Positions 3,729 to 18,259 of a stretch of 20,475 nt of DNA are shown piece by piece. Source of the DNA: a virus. Location of the stretch: the IMG/VR virus record IMGVR_UViG_3300033153_005478, positions 1-20,475 of that record; one strand, written 5' to 3'. The notes below the pieces were generated by a model that had not been told where the DNA came from, did no database searches, and worked only from the letters and a program-made list of their open reading frames with translations. How positions within the stretch are numbered: the stretch's first letter is position 1; every line of letters begins with the position of its first letter. The position numbers and the translations under genes are program-made.

Positions 3729-4262
3729 TTAGTTTCTCCTACACACTATATACCAGAATGGTCCCTTACTCTCTATCACGTGAGGGATGCCAGTAAACAG
3801 ATCCTCCAGCATCTCCTCAGTGTAGACTCGAAGGTGGCCGGGATCGTTTACATGCTTGTTGGGGGTAGTCACAACCATCGCCTTACGTGTCAAAGACCAG
3901 ACACCTAGAATAAACTTACGATCCCACTCTACATGCTCAATAACCTCAGAGCATACTACACCATCATAGAACACCCCAACAAGGTCTTGTATGGAGTACA
4001 CGCAGAGGAAATCCATCCCAGTGAAGTTCTCACGCGCCTGCTCAATAGCGTCAGTAGAGAAATCAATACCCGTCCATTCACCGTCCTTCATACGTCTCAT
4101 GTAGTCCGTAGAGTGCCCTAGACCACAACCGACATCGGCAAAAGTCTGGCCTTCTAAAAAGGAGACGCAACTTCTAAACCTCGCCTGGTGCTTGGGAGAA
4201 GCCAAGTTTCTCCAAACCTCTTTCCTGGCCCAATGCTTAGAAATGTAAGATGAGGCGTCCAT
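3729..4262 (-). CDS. SAM-dependent methyltransferase (class I)
   Basis: This 177-residue enzyme has the motifs of a class I SAM methyltransferase of the Methyltransf_11/23 type. Motif I is FADVGCGLGHS (41-51), the acidic end of strand 2 is TGIDFSTDAIEQA (about 64-76), and the motif II region, GVVCSEVIEHV, is followed by a VVTTPNK strand. The acceptor cannot be read from the sequence. Within the cassette a sugar hydroxyl, amine or phosphate group on the growing glycan is most likely. The start overlaps the preceding glycosyltransferase stop as TAATG. This is the last gene of the cassette, just before the adaptor gene. Confidence 0.85.
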   Translation of the reverse strand: MDASSYISKHWARKEVWRNLASPKHQARFRSCVSFLEGQTFADVGCGLGHSTDYMRRMKDGEWTGIDFSTDAIEQARENFTGMDFLCVYSIQDLVGVFYDGVVCSEVIEHVEWDRKFILGVWSLTRKAMVVTTPNKHVNDPGHLRVYTEEMLEDLFTGIPHVIESKGPFWYIVCRRN

Positions 4263-4987
4263 TAAAACTCCCTACCCTTCGGACCATAATATTTCTTATA
4301 GTACTCAGCAAAGAATGCATTACGCTGAGACTTCAAAGCAGTATTTTTGAACATGGCTGTCTTATCACTCGCACAAGGTAAATTCCTGTAATTTTTTGTA
4401 GGAACAACATGTTTGGGTGAATAGGTGTGAACCTTCATCTGATGCCAAAGATCGTCGCAATTGGGAAGCATACCACGAGTGTCAAAACCAAAGAGACTAC
4501 GAGAAGCAAGATAGACAACACCAGTGAAACCTACACGAGTGATCTTTTCAACACCAGCCGAATTATAATATGGACAGTCTTTATAATAGTCCTCTCCTTT
4601 GAATACACGGCCTATAATACCTACAAAACCCCCTACCTTATCCCAACCACTAACGAGATCTTGTGCGAAGCCCTCGCTAGGGACCACGTCATCATCAGCA
4701 CAAATGATGAGGTCACCGTCTGTCAGGAGAGCCACTCCATAGTCGGCGCGAGTTTTGAAATCCCAAGGCATCCGCCAATAGAGGAAACGATGATCCCCGT
4801 CAAAATCAGTCACAGGTATAACAGACTCCACTGAAGACATTGCAAGCCATGCCTGACCACCATTATCAAGAAGCAATACCTCATCAACAGGTTGATCCAA
4901 CCAACCTCTGACTACTTCAGACAGTGTAGACGCCCTACTTGGGTGGTAGGTGGTAATCAACACTGAAACTGTTTTACCATTTATCAT
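4262..4987 (-). CDS. Glycosyltransferase, GT2-like (GT-A fold)
   Basis: This 241-residue protein opens with VSVLITTYHPSRASTL, the first strand and nucleotide-binding loop of GT-A enzymes. It continues with VDEVLLLDNGG and reaches the metal-binding acidic motif ICADDDVVP (95-103), which coordinates the divalent cation and nucleotide sugar. A second acidic group, PNCDDLW, lies where the catalytic base is often found. No membrane segment is seen, so it is probably cytosolic, transferring a sugar to a soluble or peripheral acceptor. The donor and linkage cannot be predicted. Its ATG overlaps the sulfotransferase stop (TAATG) and is preceded by GGAGG and AGGATA. Confidence 0.8.
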   Translation of the reverse strand: MINGKTVSVLITTYHPSRASTLSEVVRGWLDQPVDEVLLLDNGGQAWLAMSSVESVIPVTDFDGDHRFLYWRMPWDFKTRADYGVALLTDGDLIICADDDVVPSEGFAQDLVSGWDKVGGFVGIIGRVFKGEDYYKDCPYYNSAGVEKITRVGFTGVVYLASRSLFGFDTRGMLPNCDDLWHQMKVHTYSPKHVVPTKNYRNLPCASDKTAMFKNTALKSQRNAFFAEYYKKYYGPKGREF

Positions 4988-5568
4988 TATCCTACAACCT
5001 CCAAATCGGGCGCTTTATCAATCTCATCTATTAACTCAGAATAAGTACTTTTAACATTTTCTACGTGACGTGAATCAAAACGCTCGATCCAAGACCTCCG
5101 CCTCCGATATGGAGGTAAGAGATTGAGGTCCCTCCCTGTAAACTTTTCAATCTCCTTTATGTGATCCCACATCGTCTCATAGCGAATACGCAACGTAGGT
5201 ATCGTAGGTCGCTTCCAAGAATTGAAGATTGCCATTAACCCCGCACGGTCGGAGGACATCAAGTCCGACACGTCAGCGCATCTAGGAATACCAAGAATCC
5301 TTCGACTCACTTCATCCCCTCGACCCCTCACTAGAGACAAGACTGCCAAGACTATATCCCCAAAAATGAAAACAGCACGGTCATAGCCTGAGACGAGATC
5401 GTCAGAAAAAGGTTCATGTGTTTTCAATACACCGTTCGTCTCCGTCAGACGAGTTCGTATTCGCGGCCATACTTTGTTGCATGGCAACCCCGCCAACGCA
5501 CGCGCCATTACAGTCGTCCCACAACGTGGGATTCCAGCAAGGATAATTTTGTCATTACTCACTATCAT
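4987..5568 (-). CDS. Sulfotransferase-like protein
   Basis: This 193-residue protein resembles PAPS-dependent sulfotransferases. AGIPRCGTTVMARAL (11-25) matches the 5'-phosphosulfate loop, which is typically 'g.prsGTT.l...L'. KTHEPF (49-54) matches the conserved KtH.p segment with the catalytic His, and a late RYETMWDH matches the 'YEdl' strand. The 3'-phosphate loop is less typical: FIFGDIVLAVLSLVR (68-82) keeps the Ser (78) but has Gly-Asp where an Arg is usual, so PAPS binding may differ. It is shorter than most relatives. A TTG six bases upstream is possible, but the ATG at 5568 overlaps the previous stop as TGATG. The likely role is sulfation of a glycan in this pathway. Sulfotransferases are uncommon in phages. 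Confidence 0.75.
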   Translation of the reverse strand: MIVSNDKIILAGIPRCGTTVMARALAGLPCNKVWPRIRTRLTETNGVLKTHEPFSDDLVSGYDRAVFIFGDIVLAVLSLVRGRGDEVSRRILGIPRCADVSDLMSSDRAGLMAIFNSWKRPTIPTLRIRYETMWDHIKEIEKFTGRDLNLLPPYRRRRSWIERFDSRHVENVKSTYSELIDEIDKAPDLEVVG

Positions 5569-5978
5569 CAGCAAACTACCGATTCCCGAATTAAAGTAGT
5601 AGATACATCAGTAGTACAAGGTATCCTGACAACCTTAATACCCTTCTCTTCAGCATACGCGAGCGCTGCAATATGACGAGGGGCCATAGGGCAATTCTCT
5701 TCCAAGGCGTAGACGTGTATACCCCACAGCTGCATCAACTTCACATAATCCTGATTGTGAATAGTAACTACAGAATCCACACAAGACAGGCTCGACAGCA
5801 TCTCAATACGATGAAAAAGAGGAATCACAGGCACACGACCCTTTGTCTTCATAGCAACAGCGTCACTCTGGACACCAACAACTAGTAAATCACCAGCTCT
5901 CTTAGACGCCTCAAGCGCTCTAACGTGACCTACGTGAAGGAGATCCCATACACCGGTCTTTAGGACTTTCACACGCAT
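5568..5978 (-). CDS. Cytidylyltransferase (TagD / CCT-like)
   Basis: This 136-residue enzyme has the nucleotidyltransferase signature: TGVWDLLHVGHVRAL (8-22), with HVGH at 15-18 binding the CTP phosphates, and STTLIRE (126-132) matching the C-terminal 'isTT.i' motif. Size and motif spacing fit glycerol-3-phosphate, phosphocholine or phosphoethanolamine cytidylyltransferases, which make the CDP-activated donor from CTP. The substrate cannot be fixed from the sequence. A LicD-family gene lies immediately upstream and overlaps by 10 nt, and LicD proteins use CDP-choline or related CDP donors, so the pair probably forms one donor-plus-transfer step. GGAG lies 7 nt before the start. A RfaE2-type ADP-heptose role is a less likely alternative. 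Confidence 0.85.
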   Translation of the reverse strand: MRVKVLKTGVWDLLHVGHVRALEASKRAGDLLVVGVQSDAVAMKTKGRVPVIPLFHRIEMLSSLSCVDSVVTIHNQDYVKLMQLWGIHVYALEENCPMAPRHIAALAYAEEKGIKVVRIPCTTDVSTTLIRESVVC

Positions 5979-6574
5979 ATCAGTTCTCCAGTTTTTTTAT
6001 GGATGTCCACATCGTAACCACCGAGGCCATGTATCCTCCGATAGTCAGGATAATGATGAAGCTTAGGATACTCACCACGCTTCTTCGGTGTCATAAAATC
6101 AGGACCATAAGCAGCCCTAAGATATTCTTCTACCGGAGAGGGAACTTGGAATACACGGTCAAAGAGGGTAATATCTTCAGTGTTCTCCATCAGACGCGCA
6201 GGGAGAACATTACTCCTATTCGTCAACGCTGTAGGAGTCCACCGCTCATCCCCGTTCTTGAACCATGAGGGAATATCGGCATGAACATTACCCCTATAAG
6301 CTTTACACGTCCCCACAACGTCAAAGGGCATACTTATCTCTCGCAATTCAAAGCCACGTTTACGCAGCTCCTCGGCAGCCCTTGGCCATACTTCCACCCA
6401 ATCCTCATTAAGACATCCCAAGTCAATATCAGGGTCCCAAGGGATAAACCCTTGATGTCTGTAAGCTCCGAGGCAGGTTCCGAAGGCAAGAGTATAAGGA
6501 AGACCCGCAGCCCTAAGAGCGTCATCAACATCAAACAGACATGCTTTGGCTTCTTCAGTATTCATTCCTGCCAT
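5969..6574 (-). CDS. LicD-family phosphotransferase
   Basis: This 201-residue protein carries the LicD/fukutin-type motif at 32-52: GTCLGAYRHQGFIPWDPDID, with the Asp residues that bind metal in the nucleotidyltransferase fold. Family members transfer a phospho-alcohol such as phosphocholine, or phosphoribitol/phosphoglycerol in related proteins, from a CDP donor to a sugar. The YPKLHHYPDYRR segment near the C-terminus is not diagnostic. The ATG at 6574 has GGAG 7 nt upstream and is preferred. An internal ATG at 6565 overlaps the previous stop as ATGA but has a poorly spaced site. The cytidylyltransferase downstream probably supplies its donor. The acceptor is inferred to be a sugar built by the neighbouring glycosyltransferases. 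Confidence 0.85.
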   Translation of the reverse strand: MAGMNTEEAKACLFDVDDALRAAGLPYTLAFGTCLGAYRHQGFIPWDPDIDLGCLNEDWVEVWPRAAEELRKRGFELREISMPFDVVGTCKAYRGNVHADIPSWFKNGDERWTPTALTNRSNVLPARLMENTEDITLFDRVFQVPSPVEEYLRAAYGPDFMTPKKRGEYPKLHHYPDYRRIHGLGGYDVDIHKKTGELICV

Positions 6575-7389
6575 GGTTGTACTCCAAACGGTCTCAAGAG
6601 TTCTAGTATTTCTGACATATCCCCAGTTATAATCCCACCCTTCTTCTTCACGAACCTGATTGTCTCATCCTTGTCATGGTTTTCAATCCCAGAGAAGTCC
6701 CCGGAGAGTAACTCATCCCTCTCCCTTAAAGTCAACCTCAGGGCCTGAACGCCATTCTTCAAGTGGTTAGTATTCTGCCCATGCCTGACATTACAAATAC
6801 GCTTTGGATTTAGCTCCAAGGCGCGAGACAACCTTCCGCCTAAACGAGAGTGTGCCACACAATTAATAGAGCGGAAGACATTCCAATCCTTGTAGACAGC
6901 CCTCGGAAATACTTGTGTTGTGCTGACTGGAGCTCCACGATAATGCCAAGCCAAGTAGTTATTGACCTTTTCCAAGGTATAACATACACGCCAAACCATA
7001 TATTCAACTTGGTTGCTAAGGACGGCCTTCTCTCTTACCTCGGCCATACACTCCTCGTGCATCAAATCATCTGAATCCAACCGAGTAATAGTCACGTAGT
7101 CAGCATCAATACTCTGAAGGAGGGCACGACCTTCATCATAGACCGGATAAATAGGTATCTTACTATCCTCCCATAACCACTTAGATGTCCTCGCCTTATA
7201 GCGCTGACCATGAACCAACATGATAATGAAATCAGTCGTCGTCTGGCGCTCCAAACTCCTAAGCGTAGTTTGCTTGAACATCTCCATCCGCTCCTCAAAC
7301 CACTCAAATGGCGGTGTGAAGCTCTTCCTATCCTTATCACTAAATACCTTGACTATCATTTGGACTTTTTTACTCATGGTTTCTGCCAT
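6562..7389 (-). CDS. Glycosyltransferase, putative rhamnosyltransferase-like
   Basis: This protein of up to 275 residues has features of the putative rhamnosyl transferase group with a GT-A fold. A helix with KQTTLRSLERQTTTDFIIMLV (39-59) is followed by the strand VTITRLDSDDLMHEE (99-113), whose DSDD is the metal- and donor-binding motif. Rhamnose as donor is only a family-based guess. Two starts are possible: the ATG at 7389, or the ATG at 7377, which overlaps the previous stop as ATGA. Neither has a well-placed ribosome binding site, so coupled translation is likely. Its end overlaps the LicD gene. No membrane segment is present. Confidence 0.75.
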   Translation of the reverse strand: MAETMSKKVQMIVKVFSDKDRKSFTPPFEWFEERMEMFKQTTLRSLERQTTTDFIIMLVHGQRYKARTSKWLWEDSKIPIYPVYDEGRALLQSIDADYVTITRLDSDDLMHEECMAEVREKAVLSNQVEYMVWRVCYTLEKVNNYLAWHYRGAPVSTTQVFPRAVYKDWNVFRSINCVAHSRLGGRLSRALELNPKRICNVRHGQNTNHLKNGVQALRLTLRERDELLSGDFSGIENHDKDETIRFVKKKGGIITGDMSEILELLRPFGVQPWQE

Positions 7390-7874
7390 GCCGCCGCATG
7401 TTTCCCTTTAGTGAAATCAACACGTTTCCAGCCTGCGTCGTCGAGCAGACCAGCTGCTACCCCAAGAGTCCTAGTATATTTAACATTGTAAGAAACATCA
7501 TCAAGAACCAGCCAACCCCCAGAGCGTAAGAGATTCATAGCCTGCCGGGTACACTCGATACGAGCGGGTCGTGGGCCATCCACGAGAACAAGGTCATAAT
7601 GCCCGACATGCGAATTGTCTATATCCGTATAATTACCTACAAGGGCAACACAAGCCTCACGGAAAGGGAGAAGAGCGTCACTCACCAACGCAAACCGCTT
7701 CTTATCCTGTTCCAAGGAGAACACCCTCTTCGCCATCTTCGCAAACCATACCGTCGAGCCACCGGAGCCAAACTCAAATACACACGACTTCGGCCCGAGG
7801 ATTCCAGCCATCCACTCTAACAAGTCGTCAGCGAGCCATGGCTTACTCAAGGATGTGTCGTCCTTCACACTCAT
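7374..7874 (-). CDS. SAM-dependent methyltransferase-like protein
   Basis: This 166-residue protein has a compact Rossmann methyltransferase core. Motif I is VFEFGSGGSTVWFA (32-45), strand 2 ends in FSLEQD (52-57), DLVLVDGP (94-101) matches strand 4, and RSGGWLVLDDV (about 117-127) matches strand 5. The GSGGST loop is typical of a group found in polysaccharide gene clusters. The acceptor is unknown; sugar O-methylation would fit the setting. The first 30 residues are a short helical lead. It overlaps the downstream glycosyltransferase and touches the upstream stop, consistent with a single polycistronic unit. A non-methylating Rossmann protein cannot be excluded. Confidence 0.75.
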   Translation of the reverse strand: MSVKDDTSLSKPWLADDLLEWMAGILGPKSCVFEFGSGGSTVWFAKMAKRVFSLEQDKKRFALVSDALLPFREACVALVGNYTDIDNSHVGHYDLVLVDGPRPARIECTRQAMNLLRSGGWLVLDDVSYNVKYTRTLGVAAGLLDDAGWKRVDFTKGKHAAAWQKP

Positions 7875-8779
7875 TACAAGCTGTCCTTTATAATCCGAAT
7901 GACATACTTTGCCTGCGCTGGAGGGGAAAGATAACGATCATAATACGCTTGACCCCCCTTAGCCCTACGCAGCCTCTCTCTGTCGTTATTCAACCAATAG
8001 TCAACCTTTTCCTCAAAGTCGGAGAGATCACGTTCACACTCACCCCAACAGTCTACAGGATTACCAGGTAGAATGAAATCAGGCTTAATAGTGAGGAGGA
8101 AAGCTCCTATACCCATAATCTCAGTATGACGCCATGTCCAGTCACCCCCTACCCCGGGAAGAGCCAGACAGACCTTGGAACTGGCTTGTTTGTGCATGTG
8201 ATCCATAAATCGGAGCTTATTACCCCTTACGCTCTCGGGCACCTCTGGTCTATTGCGAAAGTGCGCCACAACACAAAAGGATTTCCATCTACTGTTGGCG
8301 AGAATAATCTCAGCAGCCTTAACACGCATATCAAAAGCAGTAGCTCGACAGGCATGTATAATATCATAAGCCTTATCATCCCTCCAGTTCAAACGCCTCA
8401 ATCTGGCGGTATGGAGAGGATAACTGGAACTGCAAACAATCTGCCCTATAGGGAAGAAGCGTTCCCTCAGAGGGAGATCGGCGCGAGTCTGTATCTTGAA
8501 GTAAAAATCCCCTTGCTCCATCAGCCTCTCGTAGTGGTCTTTTTCAAAGTCGGCAACATCATACCAGACTCGATGCTTATTACCATCAATAGTAATGTAA
8601 AGAGGTATAATCCCACTAGCCTTCTTATCGTCATGCAGTTTCTTGAGGGCGTCGTTGGTTGAAACAGGAATACCCAGCGTCTCGAAACCCACCTTTAGGT
8701 ACGAAAACCAAGAGGAGAATCCGGCCATAATCGGAGGCCACTCAACACAGACAGAAGATGTGTCTACTACATTCCCCAT
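7874..8779 (-). CDS. Glycosyltransferase-like protein (exostosin / GT-B-like C-terminus)
   Basis: This 301-residue protein is not firmly recognised. Its C-terminal half reads like the donor domain of exostosin- or CAP10-like transferases. After a helix with FMDHMHKQASSKVCLALPG comes WTWRHTEIMGIGAFLL (214-229), where an Arg and Glu precede a Gly-Ala-Phe strand. An acidic region before the C-terminal helices follows. The N-terminal half has RVWYDVADF and GDFYFKIQTR, plausible as an acceptor domain. Context in a glycan cassette supports a transferase role; the donor is unknown. The start overlaps the preceding gene by 13 nt and is preceded by GAGGGTGG about 6 nt upstream. Confidence 0.6.
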   Translation of the reverse strand: MGNVVDTSSVCVEWPPIMAGFSSWFSYLKVGFETLGIPVSTNDALKKLHDDKKASGIIPLYITIDGNKHRVWYDVADFEKDHYERLMEQGDFYFKIQTRADLPLRERFFPIGQIVCSSSYPLHTARLRRLNWRDDKAYDIIHACRATAFDMRVKAAEIILANSRWKSFCVVAHFRNRPEVPESVRGNKLRFMDHMHKQASSKVCLALPGVGGDWTWRHTEIMGIGAFLLTIKPDFILPGNPVDCWGECERDLSDFEEKVDYWLNNDRERLRRAKGGQAYYDRYLSPPAQAKYVIRIIKDSL

Positions 8780-9417
8780 ATCAAACCACCCTCTTTACGA
8801 GCTTTCATAATTTTCATATCTCGCTCTTTGTGAATTCTAGCCTCTCGGTGTGTCTCATCCATCTCCTCTTTACAGAAACACGGATGATAGTGCTCAACAA
8901 CCACTTCACGGGATGTAGCAAACTTTCCAAGCTTTACAGCCAGCCAGTGAATCTCTTGGGCGGCAAAATGGTCATACTCAGGATTGAACAACTGCCGGTC
9001 GGGATAGCGGTCGAGAAATTTCTTGCCTACAATCGCCATACCTGTAGGATGGTGCGACTTATCCTGTCTCAACCCAAGGACACCATCAGTATCAGGAAAG
9101 GAACGCTCGAAGTCGTCATAGGCGCTCTCTATCATACCCTCACGGAAGGTAACATCATCTGTGCCATAGAGGATGTTACTATGAGTGTCTTTGATACCTC
9201 GATTCCTCGCATCTACAGACCCCACACGTGAAGGAAGCTCCATAATAGCTAAATTGGACCTATTGAGTATCCAATCTGGAGGACCACCCGAAAGACATTC
9301 TCCATCCAAGACAATGAAAACCTCAAGCCAAGGATAAACAGGGACACTCTCAACCATCCTTTTAAGTTTTTCAGGCCTATTGCGAGTAGCCACCAAGAGT
9401 GTAAGTGGAGCTGGCAT
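8767..9417 (-). CDS. Glycosyltransferase family 2-like
   Basis: This 216-residue GT-A protein starts with PLTLLVATRNRPEKLKRMV (4-22), the classic family 2 opening. It then has VFIVLDGE (33-40), a GSVDARNRGI segment (66-75) that normally contacts the nucleotide, and the metal-binding YGTDDVTF (84-91). It is short, consistent with a minimal catalytic domain without a membrane anchor. A Cys-rich CFCKEEMDE segment follows HYHP near residue 180; its role is unknown. Its start overlaps the upstream fusion gene's stop (TAATG), and its end overlaps the next transferase. Donor and acceptor are unknown. Confidence 0.85.
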   Translation of the reverse strand: MPAPLTLLVATRNRPEKLKRMVESVPVYPWLEVFIVLDGECLSGGPPDWILNRSNLAIMELPSRVGSVDARNRGIKDTHSNILYGTDDVTFREGMIESAYDDFERSFPDTDGVLGLRQDKSHHPTGMAIVGKKFLDRYPDRQLFNPEYDHFAAQEIHWLAVKLGKFATSREVVVEHYHPCFCKEEMDETHREARIHKERDMKIMKARKEGGLIWGM

Positions 9418-10733
9418 TATTCAATCCCCTTCTTGAGATACCGTGACGCCTGATGGTGTAGAATGACTGGATCACGGACATCCGACATCGAATCAAAGAT
9501 GGTACAATACTGCGCGGGTAAATCAATAATACGAGCTGATGAATAGCGTACACGTTTCAGTACCCTTGAAAGCGCTCGCTGATCCCACTCGCTGGGGTTG
9601 GCCTTACATTCATCCTCCCACGCCTTGAGCACATTATTCACAACAGGACAAGGGCGCATGAAGATAGTGCCACTGAGGAGCTCCCTACGAGTACCATCAC
9701 GTTGGCGATAGTGGATACCGATGTCGGCCTGGTGGAAGTCGCATAAAAGCGTAGGATATTTCAGAAATTCCGCATCGGCATCCACCATCAACAACGTACG
9801 GTCGGGAAACCTCTCTATCATCTCTCGGAGGAAAGTTGGTTTGTGTTGGACATTAGAGATCCACGAACCTCTAGACGGAATCCCTTGGATATAGTAATCT
9901 AAGCTAAACTTACCAACAGACTTCAGAAGGCGCTTAGCCTCCTCTTCATAGCCTGTACCAACGGTGTAATAACTCACAACGATTGGCTTGTCCTGCTTGG
10001 GGATGTCGGCCACATCACCAAAGCTGAAGCACGTCAGGGCGGAGTCTGGGTTTAGATTAACCACACGCCGACGCTCCTCCAGCATGGGAGCTATACGCTC
10101 AAAGTTTGGTACAAAAAGTTGCTTGTAACGGGACTCAGGTTGAACCATGGGGTGAGGAGTGCTATTCCACCAAGCTTGTGCGCCAGAGCCTAAGCCCTTC
10201 ATATCATAGCCAAGGAGGTATATAGGATCAGCCCCCAGGCAGTAGGCTAGATTGAGAGCGCCGTAACCTGAATTACAGCCACCACCCAGACCTTCACGCA
10301 TGGACTCAGTGAACTTATCGCCGCCAGCGGATACAAGGGTAAAAGCGTCACTTGGTATGTTAGGGCCGGTTTCGAGCCATACCTTGTAGCCTTTATAACC
10401 CCTCCAACGGGTGTCAAACTCCTCCCCGTACTTCTTTTCCCTGACCCACCTAGCAAAACGGGTATCCATCGAGAAGTTGATGGTGGGGTAGAAAGCCTCT
10501 GGTGTTCTATTTACCCCAATAGTCAATTCACCTTCAAGACGAGTCCAATCGAAGTTTTGTAGAGAGGGGCCGCCACCAATAAGGAAACATCGCTGGCCTT
10601 CCCAAGCCCTGTCTGGTATTTCTTTATAGAATGGACGTGAGGCTACAACAGGGTGATTGGAGTCCGCATGTTCCACAAGGCCGCGTCCGGCTCTCATTAC
10701 CCTTCGAGCTTCTCTTGAAGTTACTACCGCCAT
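9417..10733 (-). CDS. Fusion: DUF115/Maf-like domain plus nucleotide-sugar transferase domain
   Basis: This 438-residue protein has two domains. The first (about 35-245) contains CFLIGGGPSLQNFDW (49-63), TIGVNR (71-76) and the later GYGALNLAYCLGADPIYLLGYD. This is the pattern of DUF115 (MptE-like) proteins, which include the Maf flagellin glycosyltransferases. The second (about 250-435) contains LMVDADAEFLKYPTLL (315-330), an acidic GT-A motif, then SGTIFM (354-359) and WDQRAL (383-388), as in GT77-like transferases. The ATG at 10733 is chosen because GGAGG lies 5 nt upstream; a TTG 12 nt further upstream has no such site. It is the first gene of the cassette, just behind the terminator that follows the capsid gene. 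Direct protein glycosylation is an inference from the Maf relationship. Confidence 0.75.
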   Translation of the reverse strand: MAVVTSREARRVMRAGRGLVEHADSNHPVVASRPFYKEIPDRAWEGQRCFLIGGGPSLQNFDWTRLEGELTIGVNRTPEAFYPTINFSMDTRFARWVREKKYGEEFDTRWRGYKGYKVWLETGPNIPSDAFTLVSAGGDKFTESMREGLGGGCNSGYGALNLAYCLGADPIYLLGYDMKGLGSGAQAWWNSTPHPMVQPESRYKQLFVPNFERIAPMLEERRRVVNLNPDSALTCFSFGDVADIPKQDKPIVVSYYTVGTGYEEEAKRLLKSVGKFSLDYYIQGIPSRGSWISNVQHKPTFLREMIERFPDRTLLMVDADAEFLKYPTLLCDFHQADIGIHYRQRDGTRRELLSGTIFMRPCPVVNNVLKAWEDECKANPSEWDQRALSRVLKRVRYSSARIIDLPAQYCTIFDSMSDVRDPVILHHQASRYLKKGIE

Positions 10734-10743
10734 CACTACCTCC

Positions 10744-10777
10744 AAAAAGTGGGGAGGGGGGTATCAATCCCCTCCCC
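10744..10777 (-). terminator. Rho-independent-type terminator or attenuator after the capsid gene
   Basis: On the minus strand, 13 nt after the capsid stop, a 9-bp perfect GC stem (GGGGAGGGG, loop ATTGATACC, CCCCTCCCC; 77-69 with 59-51 of 10700) is followed by AC and five T residues (10748-10744). The U tract is short, so it should end only part of the transcripts. It probably lets capsid mRNA accumulate while the cassette and connector genes are read at a lower level. Confidence 0.7.
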
Positions 10778-13367: not shown

Positions 13368-14692
13368 TGCTCATCATCCTTGGAAGTGGACTCAGTGTCT
13401 TCTTGGGCCTTGATTTCAGCCAAGAGGGCAGTGGCCCTGTCTTTCTCAAGGGCGTGTACTGCCTTGGCCTCTTCGTCGGCATCAATCTCAGGCACCTTGG
13501 AGAGGAGAGTCTCAAGGGTTATAGCGCCACGTTCGTAGAGGGGCAGCCAAATAGACTCAATCTCTTTGATGCGGGCGCTGGAGGTCTGAGGGATCTCGAC
13601 GCCTATGACGCCTTCGCGCATACCCCCGAGGCCCGGAAACTCCTTATTTGCCATGGCTATGACTTTGTTGAACACTTTATCCCATACACCTCGCCACGTC
13701 TTACGGATCCCAGCGGTGCCTGAGGAGACCAGCTCAAGGAGGTTGTCGGCAGTGGCGCGGTTGGAGAGGAGATCTGGCATACCGAGGAAATGGACGGGCA
13801 CCGAGGTGTCGCCTGAGATCATCTTGGCTAGTGTTGTTATTTCCTGTCGGATAGTCTCTATCTTCGTGAAGTCTATACCCTCGATCTTGAAATTGGCTGT
13901 AGTGACAAGGATGTCCCCTATCTTCCATTTGTGGTCCTCAAGCTGCTCAAAGACCTCATCTACCTCAGCAGAGTTCTCACACTTGAACACCGGAGTAGGC
14001 AACCCTATGATATGGTTTATCTGTCTCCAGTCCCAAAGGGCTTTTGAGAGGGCCTCCACCTTCCAAAGGACTTTGGATACTGGAGGTGTAGGTTTATTGA
14101 CGTTGTAGACACGACCACCGAAGATCGCGTAAACAAATTCGTCGGGTGTGAGGTTTACCTCTTTGCCCGTCTTGCTCACCATATACTTGGCCGAGAGATG
14201 CTCCATATAGTCGTCGTCCGACACCTTGATAGTGTAAGCATGTTGAGACCACGGGACAGCCCTAATCTCTATTTGCTTGGCTTCCTTGTTGGGGAACAGG
14301 CGGAGGAGGGTTTTACCCTCTATCTCAGCCTCCTCGGCATATTCAAGGGGAACACCCTCATGGAGACCATTATGTATAATGAATTCCTTTATATACTTCA
14401 GTTCCCTGTCTGTGCCCTTTACCCGAGCTACCGGACGGATACCTTGGCCTATGGCAAAGGAGGCGCGGACGGCTACTATGGTTTGAATGAGCTCACAACC
14501 CCAACGAGCGGCGCCCTCAAACTTCTTGGAAAGGGCCGACACTTTAGAGTTGTATTCTGTATAGGGGTTGCCTGTGTAGCCCGAAGATGAAGTTTCCCGA
14601 TCAAGGAGGCCTAAGTCGGGATTGGTAAATTGAGTCTTCATCAACCTTATGGGAGGTTTAGTGGATGTAAAAAGTGTGGATAAGAGACTCAT
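13364..14692 (-). CDS. Portal protein
   Basis: This 442-residue protein follows the large terminase and precedes the protease, the canonical portal position. It has the layout of portal proteins: a start region MSLLSTLF, a central segment with SGDTSVPVHFLGM followed by NRATADNLLEL, and helical C-terminal sequence ending in a charged, low-complexity tail. Twelve copies would form the ring through which DNA enters. The ATG at 14692 overlaps the terminase stop as ATGA and has GGGAG 8 nt upstream, so a longer in-frame version beginning inside the terminase gene is rejected. Confidence 0.85.
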   Translation of the reverse strand: MSLLSTLFTSTKPPIRLMKTQFTNPDLGLLDRETSSSGYTGNPYTEYNSKVSALSKKFEGAARWGCELIQTIVAVRASFAIGQGIRPVARVKGTDRELKYIKEFIIHNGLHEGVPLEYAEEAEIEGKTLLRLFPNKEAKQIEIRAVPWSQHAYTIKVSDDDYMEHLSAKYMVSKTGKEVNLTPDEFVYAIFGGRVYNVNKPTPPVSKVLWKVEALSKALWDWRQINHIIGLPTPVFKCENSAEVDEVFEQLEDHKWKIGDILVTTANFKIEGIDFTKIETIRQEITTLAKMISGDTSVPVHFLGMPDLLSNRATADNLLELVSSGTAGIRKTWRGVWDKVFNKVIAMANKEFPGLGGMREGVIGVEIPQTSSARIKEIESIWLPLYERGAITLETLLSKVPEIDADEEAKAVHALEKDRATALLAEIKAQEDTESTSKDDEQ

Positions 14693-16050
14693 GCTGTTTT
14701 CTCCCAAGGCATTACATTGAGACCTGTTCTCAACCCCCCACCACATTGGGTAAGGTAAGTAATTGCCCAGACGAGAGCATCTACGCGGTCGGGGGAGTCT
14801 TCACCAGGTTCCCATGTCACCATCTGACTCTCCAAGTCCTCCATAACGCCCACATGGTGAACTCTACCCTGCTCGTAAAGGGAAGAGACGGGTTCCGCCC
14901 GGGTGGCTTTACCTTTCGACGCGTGGATTAGTTTTATAGGGATGTTTGGCGTCTCTACATCGTCGCCATCTTGGACCTTCTGCGTCAGGCGGATGGTGGA
15001 CTCCACCATTTCTCCGCCATTGTTTGATTCAGCAACTATGATATTGGCTTGGTTGCCCCTGTAAGCGTTGATTACTGAAGAGGCCCAATCGCGTGGTCTG
15101 GCGGCTGTACGGGACATATCATTTAGGACATAGTAATGGGCTGGTTTTCGTTTATCCCTGCCAGCGACTATGATACCGGTCTCATCTGAGGTCTTCTTTG
15201 AGGTTGCGGCAGGGTCAACACCTACTACTGTGTAAAAGATGTTGTCGGGGGCTTCTTTGAGCCTTGCCTGGTCAATCCACTTCCTCAACCATAGAGCATT
15301 GGGGTTATCATCAAGGATTTTACCTTCAATCTCCTGACGACCGAGGCGGGTTTTGCCATAATCCTCCTCAATCTGGCGTAGGAAGTTAGGCGCTAAGTTA
15401 GCCCTGTTTTCGTAGGTTGACCCTGTGGTGACATGCACACCCTTACCGCTCTTCGCCACCAGCTTTTTGATGAGCGGGCGGGGTCTTGGGGTTGTGGTTA
15501 CGATACCCCGGACATCGGAGCCGAGGCGCGCCCCAAACTGGAGCATATCCCATGTATCTTGCATCTTGGGCCATGCCGCTACTTCATCGGCCCACCAAGC
15601 ATCACACTGAGGGCCTCGTAGGGCGTCAGGTTCGGTAGCATGGAAAAGGATTATGGTCGCGCCGTTGGGAAAAGTGAGCCGACGCTTCGAGGGTTCATAC
15701 ATAGGCATGAACCATGGAGGACAGATAGTGAGGAGGCCAGAGGGGCCTTCAACCATGGTATCACGCGCATCCGACGCCGTATGGGCTACATAGTGAATTC
15801 TCTTGTAACGCCCTGATTCCACCCAGAGCCTGATAGTCTCATTCGCCGTTCTAGTCTTACCCCAACCCCTACCAGTCATAATAAGCCAAATATTCCACAG
15901 TGTCTCAAATCGGGGGACCTGCTGAGCCTTGCGCCCCTGGATAGACCACCGGTATTTAGCCTCCTCGACCAAACCATTGAGTACACAGCGGTCAGCGGCC
16001 ACCACGGGATCGCTCTCGAAGGCATTAGCGTTAGGGACGTGGGTAATCAT
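14689..16050 (-). CDS. terL: Terminase large subunit (TerL)
   Basis: This 453-residue ATPase-nuclease drives DNA packaging. The Walker A motif is TGRGWGKTR (59-67), with the Gly-Arg-Gly-x-Gly-Lys-Thr form seen in many TerL proteins. Walker B with the catalytic Glu is DAWWADEVAAW (150-160). The TTTPRP coupling segment is at 185-190. The nuclease domain begins with VVGVDPAAT (275-283), giving the first metal-binding Asp, and ends with SPDRVDALVWA. Both domains are present, so the protein is probably functional. It is translated from an ATG overlapping the small subunit stop (ATGA). Confidence 0.95.
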   Translation of the reverse strand: MITHVPNANAFESDPVVAADRCVLNGLVEEAKYRWSIQGRKAQQVPRFETLWNIWLIMTGRGWGKTRTANETIRLWVESGRYKRIHYVAHTASDARDTMVEGPSGLLTICPPWFMPMYEPSKRRLTFPNGATIILFHATEPDALRGPQCDAWWADEVAAWPKMQDTWDMLQFGARLGSDVRGIVTTTPRPRPLIKKLVAKSGKGVHVTTGSTYENRANLAPNFLRQIEEDYGKTRLGRQEIEGKILDDNPNALWLRKWIDQARLKEAPDNIFYTVVGVDPAATSKKTSDETGIIVAGRDKRKPAHYYVLNDMSRTAARPRDWASSVINAYRGNQANIIVAESNNGGEMVESTIRLTQKVQDGDDVETPNIPIKLIHASKGKATRAEPVSSLYEQGRVHHVGVMEDLESQMVTWEPGEDSPDRVDALVWAITYLTQCGGGLRTGLNVMPWEKTA

Positions 16051-16640
16051 TCCTTCGCCTCCTCAATCTCACCTTCGATAAAGCCGTCCTCGTCCAAGGG
16101 CTTCTCAATAGCCCTCTGATCCTCAATATACTTCGTGATTACTTTGATTTCGGCAATCAATTCCCTGTCAGTCATGTTGGCCATGTGTCCTCTATCGCCC
16201 CTACCGTCGTGAACGCGGAAATTGGATCTGTCAAACACTGAAGGGCGATGACCTTTAAGGAGTACCTTTAACAAACCCTCTGAGTACTTGGGCTTCTTTG
16301 TGGTAGTATGAGTCACATTACCTTCTGGATCAACCTTTTCAACGGTCTCCTCCACCATAAAGCCCATAGCCCTCCGTCTGGCCTCTGTCTCAAGGACATC
16401 AGTCGAGGTTTCCTTTGCGGCATCCCATAATATTGCAAATTCGGGGTCCCTCTTCCTCATCTCATACACGTAATTATGCTTTATTCCGGCTATCTCGCAG
16501 GACTCGGTAACATTGCCCGTAACAGCCAACGCCTTGAGGAACTTCTCCCTCGTGCGCATACCCTTCCTCCGCCGTTTCGCCCTTCCATCACGAAAGCCAT
16601 CTACCTGCCCAATGCGCGAAAATAGAGAAACTTGACTCAA
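16047..16640 (-). CDS. terS: Terminase small subunit-like protein
   Basis: This 197-residue protein lies just upstream of TerL. It contains a helix-turn-helix-like region, FLKALAVTGNVTESCEIAGI followed by YVYEMRKRDPEF (about 34-67), and then YSEGLLKVLLKGHRPSVFDR (about 119-138), a segment common in small terminase proteins. It should recognise phage DNA and recruit TerL. The annotated start is a TTG at 16640 with GAGAGG about 9 nt upstream; an ATG at 16559 lacks the basic N-terminus. The C-terminus is acidic. It is the first gene of the leftward late operon, next to the large noncoding region. Confidence 0.8.
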   Translation of the reverse strand: MSQVSLFSRIGQVDGFRDGRAKRRRKGMRTREKFLKALAVTGNVTESCEIAGIKHNYVYEMRKRDPEFAILWDAAKETSTDVLETEARRRAMGFMVEETVEKVDPEGNVTHTTTKKPKYSEGLLKVLLKGHRPSVFDRSNFRVHDGRGDRGHMANMTDRELIAEIKVITKYIEDQRAIEKPLDEDGFIEGEIEEAKE

Positions 16641-16746
16641 ACTTCAATTCCTCTCTGTGTATGATCCGACGCACATGTAGCATATCGCACATACCCCCCG
16701 TCAACATCTTTTTTCATATAGGGCAATGTTTATACAAAATCTCTTA

Positions 16747-16775
16747 TTGACAACCACTCCACCTTATGCTAAACT
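16747..16775 (+). promoter_or_regulatory. Sigma70-type promoter candidate, rightward
   Basis: A perfect TTGACA (16747-16752) is followed after 17 bp by TAAACT (16770-16775). It would transcribe rightwards, through about 1.1 kb of noncoding DNA before the first early gene. It could instead make a leader or small RNA. Confidence 0.5.
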
Positions 16776-16782
16776 TCGTCTG

Positions 16783-16811
16783 TTGACAGCGCAGAAAACC
16801 TCCCCTTTAAC
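16783..16811 (+). promoter_or_regulatory. Second, tandem sigma70-type promoter candidate
   Basis: Another perfect TTGACA (16783-16788), 36 bp after the first, is followed after 17 bp by TTTAAC (16806-16811), which matches the -10 consensus in four of six positions. Two perfect -35 boxes at this spacing suggest tandem control. Confidence 0.35.
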
Positions 16812-16823
16812 CTTTCGCTTAAT

Positions 16824-16850
16824 GTACTTGTACTCATATAAGTACTTGTA
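16824..16850 (+). repeat. GTACTTGTA direct repeat pair
   Basis: GTACTTGTA occurs at 16824-16832 and 16842-16850, 18 bp apart, and in inverted form (TACAAGTAC) at 17164-17172. Each occurrence lies near an AT-rich stretch that precedes a G-rich block. It could be a protein-binding site. Confidence 0.5.
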
Positions 16851-16873
16851 TAAGAGTGTTATATATATTAAAG

Positions 16874-16894
16874 AGAGGGGGGTGTGGGGGGAGA
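16874..16894 (+). repeat. G-rich block, copy 1
   Basis: An almost pure purine stretch has two runs of six G residues around TGT. It closely resembles 17186-17208 and could form triplex or quadruplex structures. Function is unknown. Confidence 0.5.
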
Positions 16895-16916
16895 GAGGTA
16901 GAGGGTGTTGGAATGG

Positions 16917-16953
16917 TATTTTGATTTTCAAAAATATTATAAAATTTTTTGAT
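16917..16953. other. AT-rich, self-complementary stretch (possible unwinding element)
   Basis: This segment is nearly all A and T and includes the inverted pairs TTTTGA/TCAAAA and CAAAAAT/ATTTTTTG. It follows the first G-rich block and precedes the repeats, so it could be an easily melted origin element or an AT-rich hairpin. This is suggestive only. Confidence 0.35.
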
Positions 16954-17005
16954 AGGTGGATGAATGGGTAGATTGATAAGAGGATAGATAAGTGAATAGG
17001 TGGAT
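16952..17005 (+). repeat. ATAGGTGGAT direct repeat in a GATA/GTGGAT-rich tract
   Basis: ATAGGTGGAT occurs at 16952-16961 and 16996-17005, 44 bp apart, within a tract of quasi-repeated GATA and GGATA words. Confidence 0.45.
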
Positions 17006-17081
17006 TGAGAAATGGAAAGCGGTGGTAGAGTATGTGGCTACTTACCATACAGAAAAGGGGCACCCCTATTGAGTTTTCACG

Positions 17082-17119
17082 GTTAGTTACTACTCTTTTA
17101 GTTAGTTACTCCCATTATC
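17082..17119 (+). repeat. 19-bp direct repeat, two copies
   Basis: GTTAGTTACT occurs at 17082-17091 and 17101-17110, exactly 19 bp apart, each followed by a C/T-rich stretch (ACTCTTTTA and CCCATTATC). The spacing equals that of the array at 17402-17513. Confidence 0.5.
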
Positions 17120-17185
17120 CATCAGTATATAAGTATGAGTATAGATATATATAGGTGTACATTTACAAGTACATTAAGCTCCTAC

Positions 17186-17208
17186 AGAGGGGGAGTGTGA
17201 GGGGGAGA
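17186..17208 (+). repeat. G-rich block, copy 2
   Basis: This repeats the block at 16874-16894 with small insertions (AGAGGGGG, GTGTG, GGGGGAGA order retained). It follows an inverted GTACTTGTA word, as copy 1 follows direct ones. Confidence 0.5.
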
Positions 17209-17225
17209 TTGCCAGGTGTCTCGAT

Positions 17226-17327
17226 GGGTAAAGCGTTACCCAAATAGGAATGAGAATAGATTCAAGATGGGTAAGTGGTTACCCAAATAGAATAGAGTCT
17301 AGTTGTCAAATGGGTAAGGTGTTACCC
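17226..17327 (+). repeat. Three 43-bp-spaced palindromic iterons (GGGTAA-N4-TTACCC)
   Basis: The palindrome GGGTAA-N4-TTACCC is found at 17226-17241, 17269-17284 and 17312-17327, with central N4 of AGCG, GTGG and GGTG. Each start is exactly 43 bp from the last, near four DNA helical turns, so a bound dimer would face the same side each time. The spacers are also related: CAAATAG follows copies 1 and 2. This is an operator or iteron array for a dimeric protein, perhaps a repressor or replication initiator. Confidence 0.8.
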
Positions 17328-17401
17328 GTGGGTGCCCGCGTGTCTAGCCTTCTCGATCTATCCTTCACTCGCTCACTGCTACAGTCGGCCATCTCACCCA
17401 C

Positions 17402-17513
17402 TCCCTTAAAGTTAGGCTTTCCAAACATAGTTAATCTCTCCAAATATACTCAGGCATCCCCAACATAGTCAGTCCCCTTGAACAAAGTTAGGCTTCCCTA
17501 ACATTCACAGGCT
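17402..17513 (+). repeat. About six degenerate 19-bp tandem repeats
   Basis: Consecutive units of 18-19 bp start at 17402, 17420, 17439, 17457, 17476 and 17495. They match a rough consensus TCCCNAACATAGTTAGGCT with several differences each. The array ends in the palindrome AGGCTAGCCT. It could bind a replication or partition protein. Degeneracy makes the exact number uncertain. Confidence 0.6.
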
Positions 17514-17518
17514 AGCCT
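17509..17518. repeat. AGGCTAGCCT palindrome, copy 1
   Basis: This perfect 10-bp palindrome closes the tandem array; an identical copy lies at 17685-17694. Two such copies in a short noncoding region suggest a dimer-binding site. Confidence 0.5.
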
Positions 17519-17684
17519 AACAGTCCATTCCGTGTATGTTACCTGGTTGTCCTATTATTCCCATAAAAGTCCTATTGTAGGTTATCTCACTATTGGCATT
17601 AGATACTAATAATCCCACTATCTTGGGCAAGTATTATGCCAGTAGGGTTTATTGGTTTTATTAGAGTTATAACATTGGCTGTTT

Positions 17685-17694
17685 AGGCTAGCCT
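17685..17694. repeat. AGGCTAGCCT palindrome, copy 2
   Basis: Identical to the palindrome at 17509-17518, and upstream of the candidate early promoter at 17748. Confidence 0.5.
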
Positions 17695-17747
17695 TGATTG
17701 TAGCGTATGGCTCAAGGGTGTGTATGAGATAGCGCTAAATAGGATAT

Positions 17748-17777
17748 TTTACTCATGGCCAGATAGAGGCTTATAAT
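17748..17777 (+). promoter_or_regulatory. Sigma70-type promoter candidate for the early operon
   Basis: TTTACT (17748-17753, four of six matches) and a perfect TATAAT (17772-17777) are separated by 18 bp. The start would lie near 17784, leaving a leader of about 145 nt before the first early gene. It is the best-placed rightward promoter for that operon. Confidence 0.5.
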
Positions 17778-17929
17778 GGTGTAAAGCCTTTATTTAGAGA
17801 AGTCTATAGAGTCAATGCTGTATTGCTTAGTATTGGCATAGGTGTCGCTAATATAGGGGTAAAAGAAGATGGATGTTTTAACAAAAACGGAAGGCCAAAA
17901 TTGAGAGAAACAAAAGAAAGGCCAAAAAA

Positions 17930-18259
17930 ATGGAACACGATCTAGTCACAGACGACGTAATTGAAATTGTTGAGCCGGTTTGGCAACGCGGTGTGAAGCG
18001 ACCGATCGGCGAGCGTCATTATGTCGCTAAGATCGAGCGCGAATCTTACGGCGACAAAACCGGCCAACACACGTTTTCGCTTCGCGTGACCGAAGTAATC
18101 TCCGGCGAAGGCGTTGAAGTCGGCAAACTGATTCGCCGTATGGGGCGCAACGTTTATCCAAATGCATTTCTGCTGGAGCGCGACGAAGACAAATTCGAGC
18201 GGCGCGCAGCGGCCAAACACGACCGCGCGGTTATGTATTCGGCCCGGGCGTTGGCTTGA
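17930..18259 (+). CDS. Hypothetical early protein, 109 aa
   Basis: I do not recognise this protein. It is 109 residues, hydrophilic and charged, and starts MEHDLVTDDVIEIVEPVW. Its middle is beta-rich, with YVAKIERESYGDKTGQHTFSLRVTEVI, and a basic helix follows (ERRAAAKHDRAVMYSARALA). There is no membrane segment or Cys motif. An AAAGG site lies 8 nt upstream, so translation is likely. It is the first rightward gene after the control region, a position often used for regulators or takeover proteins; that role is only a guess. Confidence 0.7.
   Translation: MEHDLVTDDVIEIVEPVWQRGVKRPIGERHYVAKIERESYGDKTGQHTFSLRVTEVISGEGVEVGKLIRRMGRNVYPNAFLLERDEDKFERRAAAKHDRAVMYSARALA

Follow-up and report, generated by a model that had tools for sequence, protein, structure and literature searches.

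The window analyzed here is the whole of a 20,475-bp viral record, an incomplete genome fragment, in which two divergent operons are separated by a non-coding gap of 1,289 bp (16641–17929). The leftward genes comprise terS and terL, portal-like, protease-like and capsid genes, and a cassette of sugar-transfer-like genes; the names portal, protease, and capsid are based on gene order and on related phages, the PHROG matches of these genes being unnamed in function. The leftward packaging and head operon opens with terS (16047–16640, minus strand; phrog_4044, E=2.6e-23). The rightward genes are small and mostly unassigned in function: the opening ORF of this operon (17930–18259, plus strand) matches DUF7699 at threshold, and the last one, at the right edge of the contig, matches the DNA-metabolism family phrog_3007 (E=4e-8). 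The latter ORF had been guessed by eye to encode a sliding clamp; Pfam and PDB searches gave no support for this guess, and PHROGs pointed to a RusA-like protein or DNA metabolism. The sugar-transfer cassette, located between the capsid and head-tail genes (3729–10745), comprises some ten genes (sugar-transfer, methyltransferase-like, and nucleotidyltransferase-like) and is partly common to six related contigs (L199–L203 and L262).

The gap contains three exact copies of the palindrome GGGTAA-N4-TTACCC, namely, GGGTAAAGCGTTACCC (17226–17241, with the center AGCG), GGGTAAGTGGTTACCC (17269–17284, GTGG), and GGGTAAGGTGTTACCC (17312–17327, GGTG). The copies start at 17226, 17269, and 17312, that is, at two successive intervals of 43 bp, which corresponds to about 4.1 helical turns at 10.5 bp per turn. 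A sequence-only reading of this DNA had reported the three palindromes in the gap between divergent operons, at exact 43-bp intervals and near four helical turns, and all of this holds; the search for the motif elsewhere in the genome, which that reading had proposed, yielded no exact copy in the 20,475-bp record beyond the three. In first-order Markov shuffles of the non-coding gap (n=2,000), three 6-bp dyads with the same arm were never encountered (0 of 2,000), and two such dyads were found in 2 of 2,000.

The palindromes are borne by a 43-bp tandem array of 2.4 copies (17223–17327; Tandem Repeats Finder score 131), and comparison of the linkers suggests a composite history. The linkers of copies 1 and 2 are alike (17 of 27 positions identical, or about 23 of 27 when gaps are allowed), so that, judging from the sequence, these two copies look like a tandem duplication that would be the source of part of the regularity of the array. 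The linkers of copy 3 match the others at only 4 and 6 of the 27 positions, with almost nothing shared apart from the palindrome and the flanking AT; thus, copy 3 has kept both the 43-bp register and the arms despite unrelated linkers, a contrast that is partly circular given that the copies were recognized by their arms. The 4-bp centers also differ between the copies (1–2 of the 4 bases shared), whereas the arms are invariant, as would fit a dyad DNA site rather than a conserved RNA hairpin, and agrees with the earlier prediction that these are sites for a dimeric protein. An RNA hairpin was considered separately and rejected: the region folds better than its shuffles (z −3.9), as expected of any palindromes, the loops vary while the stems are constant, and Rfam yielded no match. 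A search for tRNAs was likewise negative.

Several other features of the gap surround the array. The GC content of the gap is 0.40, compared to 0.48 for the record, and the GC-skew changes sign within it. In a nearest-neighbor stability scan, the 50-bp stretch with the lowest stability anywhere in the record, a candidate DNA unwinding element, is found at 17126–17175 and stops 50 bp short of palindrome 1; the second and third least stable 50-bp stretches (16820–16869 and 16916–16965, respectively) are also located in the gap. On the other side of the palindromes lies a degenerate, iteron-like array of six 19-bp direct repeats (17408–17521, plus strand; consensus approximately ATAGTTAGGCTTCCCMAAC), which was absent from the sequence-only reading; its column score of 87 out of 114 is significant, the maximum in 100 shuffles being 69. 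The gap further contains a perfect 16-bp inverted repeat, with the left arm GCTTAATGTACTTGTA at 16817–16832 (plus strand) and the right arm at 17164–17179 (minus strand), 331 bp apart; this repeat extends over the margins of two of these weakest stretches. A 12-bp inverted-repeat pair consists of AGGCTAGCCTAA (17509–17520), with the core AGGCTAGCCT that is itself palindromic, and TTAGGCTAGCCT (17683–17694). There was no exact match to the DnaA box in the gap, and no promoter overlapping the dyads was predicted; the nearest good rightward promoter match (17748–17777) is more than 400 bp from the dyads, and such matches occur at the frequency expected by chance.

The relationships of this phage differ from one part of the record to another. 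Relatives of TerL are numerous but share with the record only terL, along with terS in two cases. By capsid, portal, and protease, the kin of the phage are the contigs L199–L204 and L259–L263 (capsid identity 41–51%), which carry another terminase module and lack the terminase genes of the record; the terL/terS module (14689–16640) appears to have been swapped relative to these phages. No repeated dyads (arm of at least 5) were found in the available loci of these kin, and in the two that were inspected for gene order (L259 and L262), the upstream genes are co-directional. The search for relatives via two of the rightward genes yielded none among viral contigs or phages except for a 34% match of the 139-aa rightward protein in a Bacillus phage, and a blastn search of phages, with the rightmost third of the record as the query, produced zero matches.

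Another line of evidence comes from the occurrence of similar dyads in other viruses. In a scan of viral contigs for two exact motifs separated by 12–42 bp, only L005 and L006 matched; here, a Phage_rep_O gene (PF04492, E=1.6e-27) harbors seven copies, exact or nearly so, at a spacing of mostly 22 bp, and five more contigs (L030, L057, L064, L091, and L110) resemble them. A wider scan, which covered 2.9 million viral contigs and required at least three GGGT-N8-ACCC dyads 31–61 bp apart, returned 40 contigs, in 30 of which the dyad cluster lies inside a replication-initiator gene, a share that was measured for GGGT-N8-ACCC dyads alone and does not imply specificity to this sequence. These 30 contigs fall into 15 groups at 90% identity, or 8 when only unrelated groups are counted; the matches of the representatives are to Phage_rep_O or to replication-initiation families of PHROGs. 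The dyad spacings in the 40 contigs are mostly near 22, 34, 45, and 57 bp, that is, about 2–5 helical turns.

In bacterial genomes, the paired motif was found in assorted unrelated settings, which shows that the short motif alone is no proof of an initiator. In Arthrobacter sp. Leaf141 (L213:3403–3449), two GGGTAA-N4-TTACCC dyads 31 bp apart directly precede a putative HTH (Xre-like) gene and are possibly an autoregulatory operator. In a planctomycete MAG (L217; also L210 and L218), REP-like repeats of the GTAGGATGGGTAAC type are dispersed beside an ORF resembling a REP-type Y1 transposase. In Nodularia, a repeat that shares the core and has a 43-bp period (L216:86–144) contains GCGATCGC and is probably a coincidental tandem duplication. 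Separately, another viral contig contains three identical 42-bp palindromic repeats between terS-like and terL-like genes (L256:10207–10306).

Taken together, the phased dyads, the adjoining weakest DNA of the record, the second array, and the location in a non-coding gap between divergent operons match an iteron-type replication origin. We therefore favor the interpretation of the gap as a non-coding origin of this type, recognized by a dimeric initiator whose gene would lie outside the sequenced fragment, and consider the chances of this assignment to be about even. The analysis shows the dyads with their spacing, the array of 19-bp repeats, the stability minima, the non-coding location between the divergent operons, and the recurrence of the dyads in phage initiator genes; on top of these, we infer the initiator along with its binding, the unwinding, and what the 19-bp array does. 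Under this model, a dimeric initiator from the unsequenced part of the genome would bind the three GGGTAA-N4-TTACCC dyads, which are four turns apart on nearly the same face of the helix, so that the bound dimers could form a single bent nucleoprotein complex. The strain imposed by this complex would melt the weak A+T-rich DNA on the left, at 17126–17175 and then at 16916–16965 and 16820–16869, giving the replicative helicase its loading site. To the right of the palindromes, the 19-bp array might offer additional binding sites, either for the initiator or for a different protein, through which firing would be regulated. The DNA-metabolism match of the ORF at the right edge of the contig is in keeping with an origin. 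The main weakness of the case for an origin is the missing initiator: no initiator gene was found in the record, which is a fragment, and PF04492 is absent from both the record and the kin. Further points against an origin are that the copies in the known arrays of the same motif lie 22 bp apart within the initiator gene rather than in non-coding DNA at 43 bp, that three is a low number of spaced dyads for an origin, that GC-skew and A+T-richness also go with divergent promoters, that the gap is devoid of exact DnaA boxes, and that pairs of the motif are found in the unrelated bacterial settings described above.

The sequence-only reading had offered three functions for the palindromes, namely, a cooperative repressor, a replication initiator, or a late switch. 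The initiator is the best backed of these, by the adjoining DNA resembling an unwinding element, the 19-bp array, and the dyad clusters in phage initiator genes, whereas nothing specific was found for a late switch. The repressor survives in the form of an operator array, where dimers of a phage repressor or activator would bind the phased dyads cooperatively and control divergent promoters. The location between divergent operons, which is shared with phage repressor operators in general, and the phasing of the dyads fit this possibility, as does the dyad pair preceding the Xre-like gene in Arthrobacter; however, the dyads overlap no predicted promoter, no HTH_3 regulator or other repressor gene was found in this fragment, and the large unstable region along with the second array would be superfluous for an operator. 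Such an operator thus appears rather unlikely, albeit worth serious consideration. A centromere is a different proposition: ParB would bind palindromes within 43-bp repeats, ParA would segregate an extrachromosomal prophage, and the 19-bp array would represent replication iterons. The parS site (sopC, ParABS type Ia) of the F plasmid consists of twelve 43-bp tandem repeats with ten 16-bp inverted repeats (PMC6238139; PMC9178275), and the incC/ori2 iterons lie to the left of parS (PMC6238139), so that the array in the record equals F parS in both the period and the length of the dyad and resembles the F layout in having an iteron array next to it. This likeness is striking, but it is an analogy based on the period and the dyad length alone, and the match in period might be a coincidence. 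The SopB site is TGGGACC-N2-GGTCCCA, from which GGGTAA-N4-TTACCC differs; furthermore, the record has only three copies, parA and parB, which are adjacent to sopC in F, were not seen in it, ParB_N had no match in either this fragment or the kin, and there is no sign of a prophage lifestyle. Accordingly, we consider a centromere improbable. The combined proposal, in which the gap would be a compact phage-plasmid maintenance locus with a sopC-like 43-bp centromere beside a 19-bp iteron origin, with a new ParB or initiator specificity and in a lineage without a known plasmid-like phage, seems quite improbable.

The position of the gap directly upstream of the terS-terL-portal operon also brings to mind a packaging site (cosB or pac), in which the small terminase subunit binds the repeats that immediately precede its own gene. 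The idea of a terminase site was initially encouraged by Achromobacter phage 83-24 (41% identity in the TerS region), which has three 55-bp tandem repeats just upstream of terS (L266:2647–2811), with the full TGGGGTATACCCCA palindrome in 2 of the 3 units. It was then weakened by the sister phages AMA2 and JWX, which have a single 55-bp unit, without the palindrome, so that the repeats in 83-24 are a strain-specific duplication, not conserved in Steinhofvirus. Among the phages with homologous terS genes that were examined, from Rhodobacter, Achromobacter, Janthinobacterium, Stenotrophomonas, Xanthomonas, Pseudomonas, Variovorax, and Brevundimonas, 83-24 is the only one with palindromic tandem repeats like these near terS, and repeated dyads comparable to those in the record were absent from the other upstream gaps. 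In lambda cosB and SPP1 pac, the repeats are likewise near terS, but the dyads in the record are about 590 bp away from it; moreover, the binding of TerS to pac is generally weak, and the pac site of P22 is asymmetric (PMC9611059). Given these observations, we regard a packaging site as a decidedly improbable explanation. Finally, the array might lack a function altogether, being a local tandem duplication or a mobile palindromic (REP-like) repeat, as could be suggested by the duplicated appearance of copies 1 and 2 with their common linkers, the dispersed same-core repeats in the Planctomycetota MAG, and the 43-bp repeat in Nodularia. The retention of the arms and register in copy 3 speaks against this explanation, with the circularity noted above, and unlike dispersed REP elements, the motif does not occur anywhere else in the record; we find the lack of function very unlikely.

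If the gap is indeed a replication origin, the palindromes pinpoint the start of replication in a phage lineage for which the searched phage collection contains no close relatives. They would also demonstrate that GGGT-N8-ACCC dyads, which are usually embedded in initiator genes, can occur by themselves in non-coding DNA at double the spacing. Clusters of such dyads may flag candidate origins in metagenomic phages, considering that an initiator gene was involved in three quarters of the contigs from the wider scan.

Among the known systems closest to the record are the lambda-type origins (Phage_rep_O, PF04492) and their relatives in L005, L006, L030, L057, L064, L091, and L110: like the record, they have repeated dyads with outer G/C tracts, and the core in L005 and L006, GGGTAA-N4-TTACCC, is identical. 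In the lambda origin, inverted-repeat iterons bound by O dimers lie beside an AT-rich tract (PMC7466680; PMC5043065), and A+T-rich DNA is present near the dyads in the record as well; plasmid iterons, too, are helically phased (PMC5043065). The dyads of these arrays, however, lie within the initiator gene and are spaced by 22 bp, in contrast to the non-coding array with its 43-bp spacing and no initiator gene in sight, and because no ORF with similarity to initiators spans 17226–17327, the record does not contain a lambda O-type origin in the strict sense. In architecture, the origin of the PLE satellite of Vibrio cholerae provides a parallel, being non-coding and combining repeats of several types with three semi-palindromic iterons, each about 30 bp long and 14–16 bp from the next (PMC7145576; PMC8263062); as in the record, the non-coding region is large, and the period of the PLE iterons, roughly 45 bp, is close to 43 bp. 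The PLE differs in the length of the iterons, in having 13-bp inverted repeats around a poly-A tract and a known RepA_N initiator, and in its unrelated sequence. Most likely, then, the palindromes in the record belong to a known kind of element, the phage origin palindromes, in a new arrangement.
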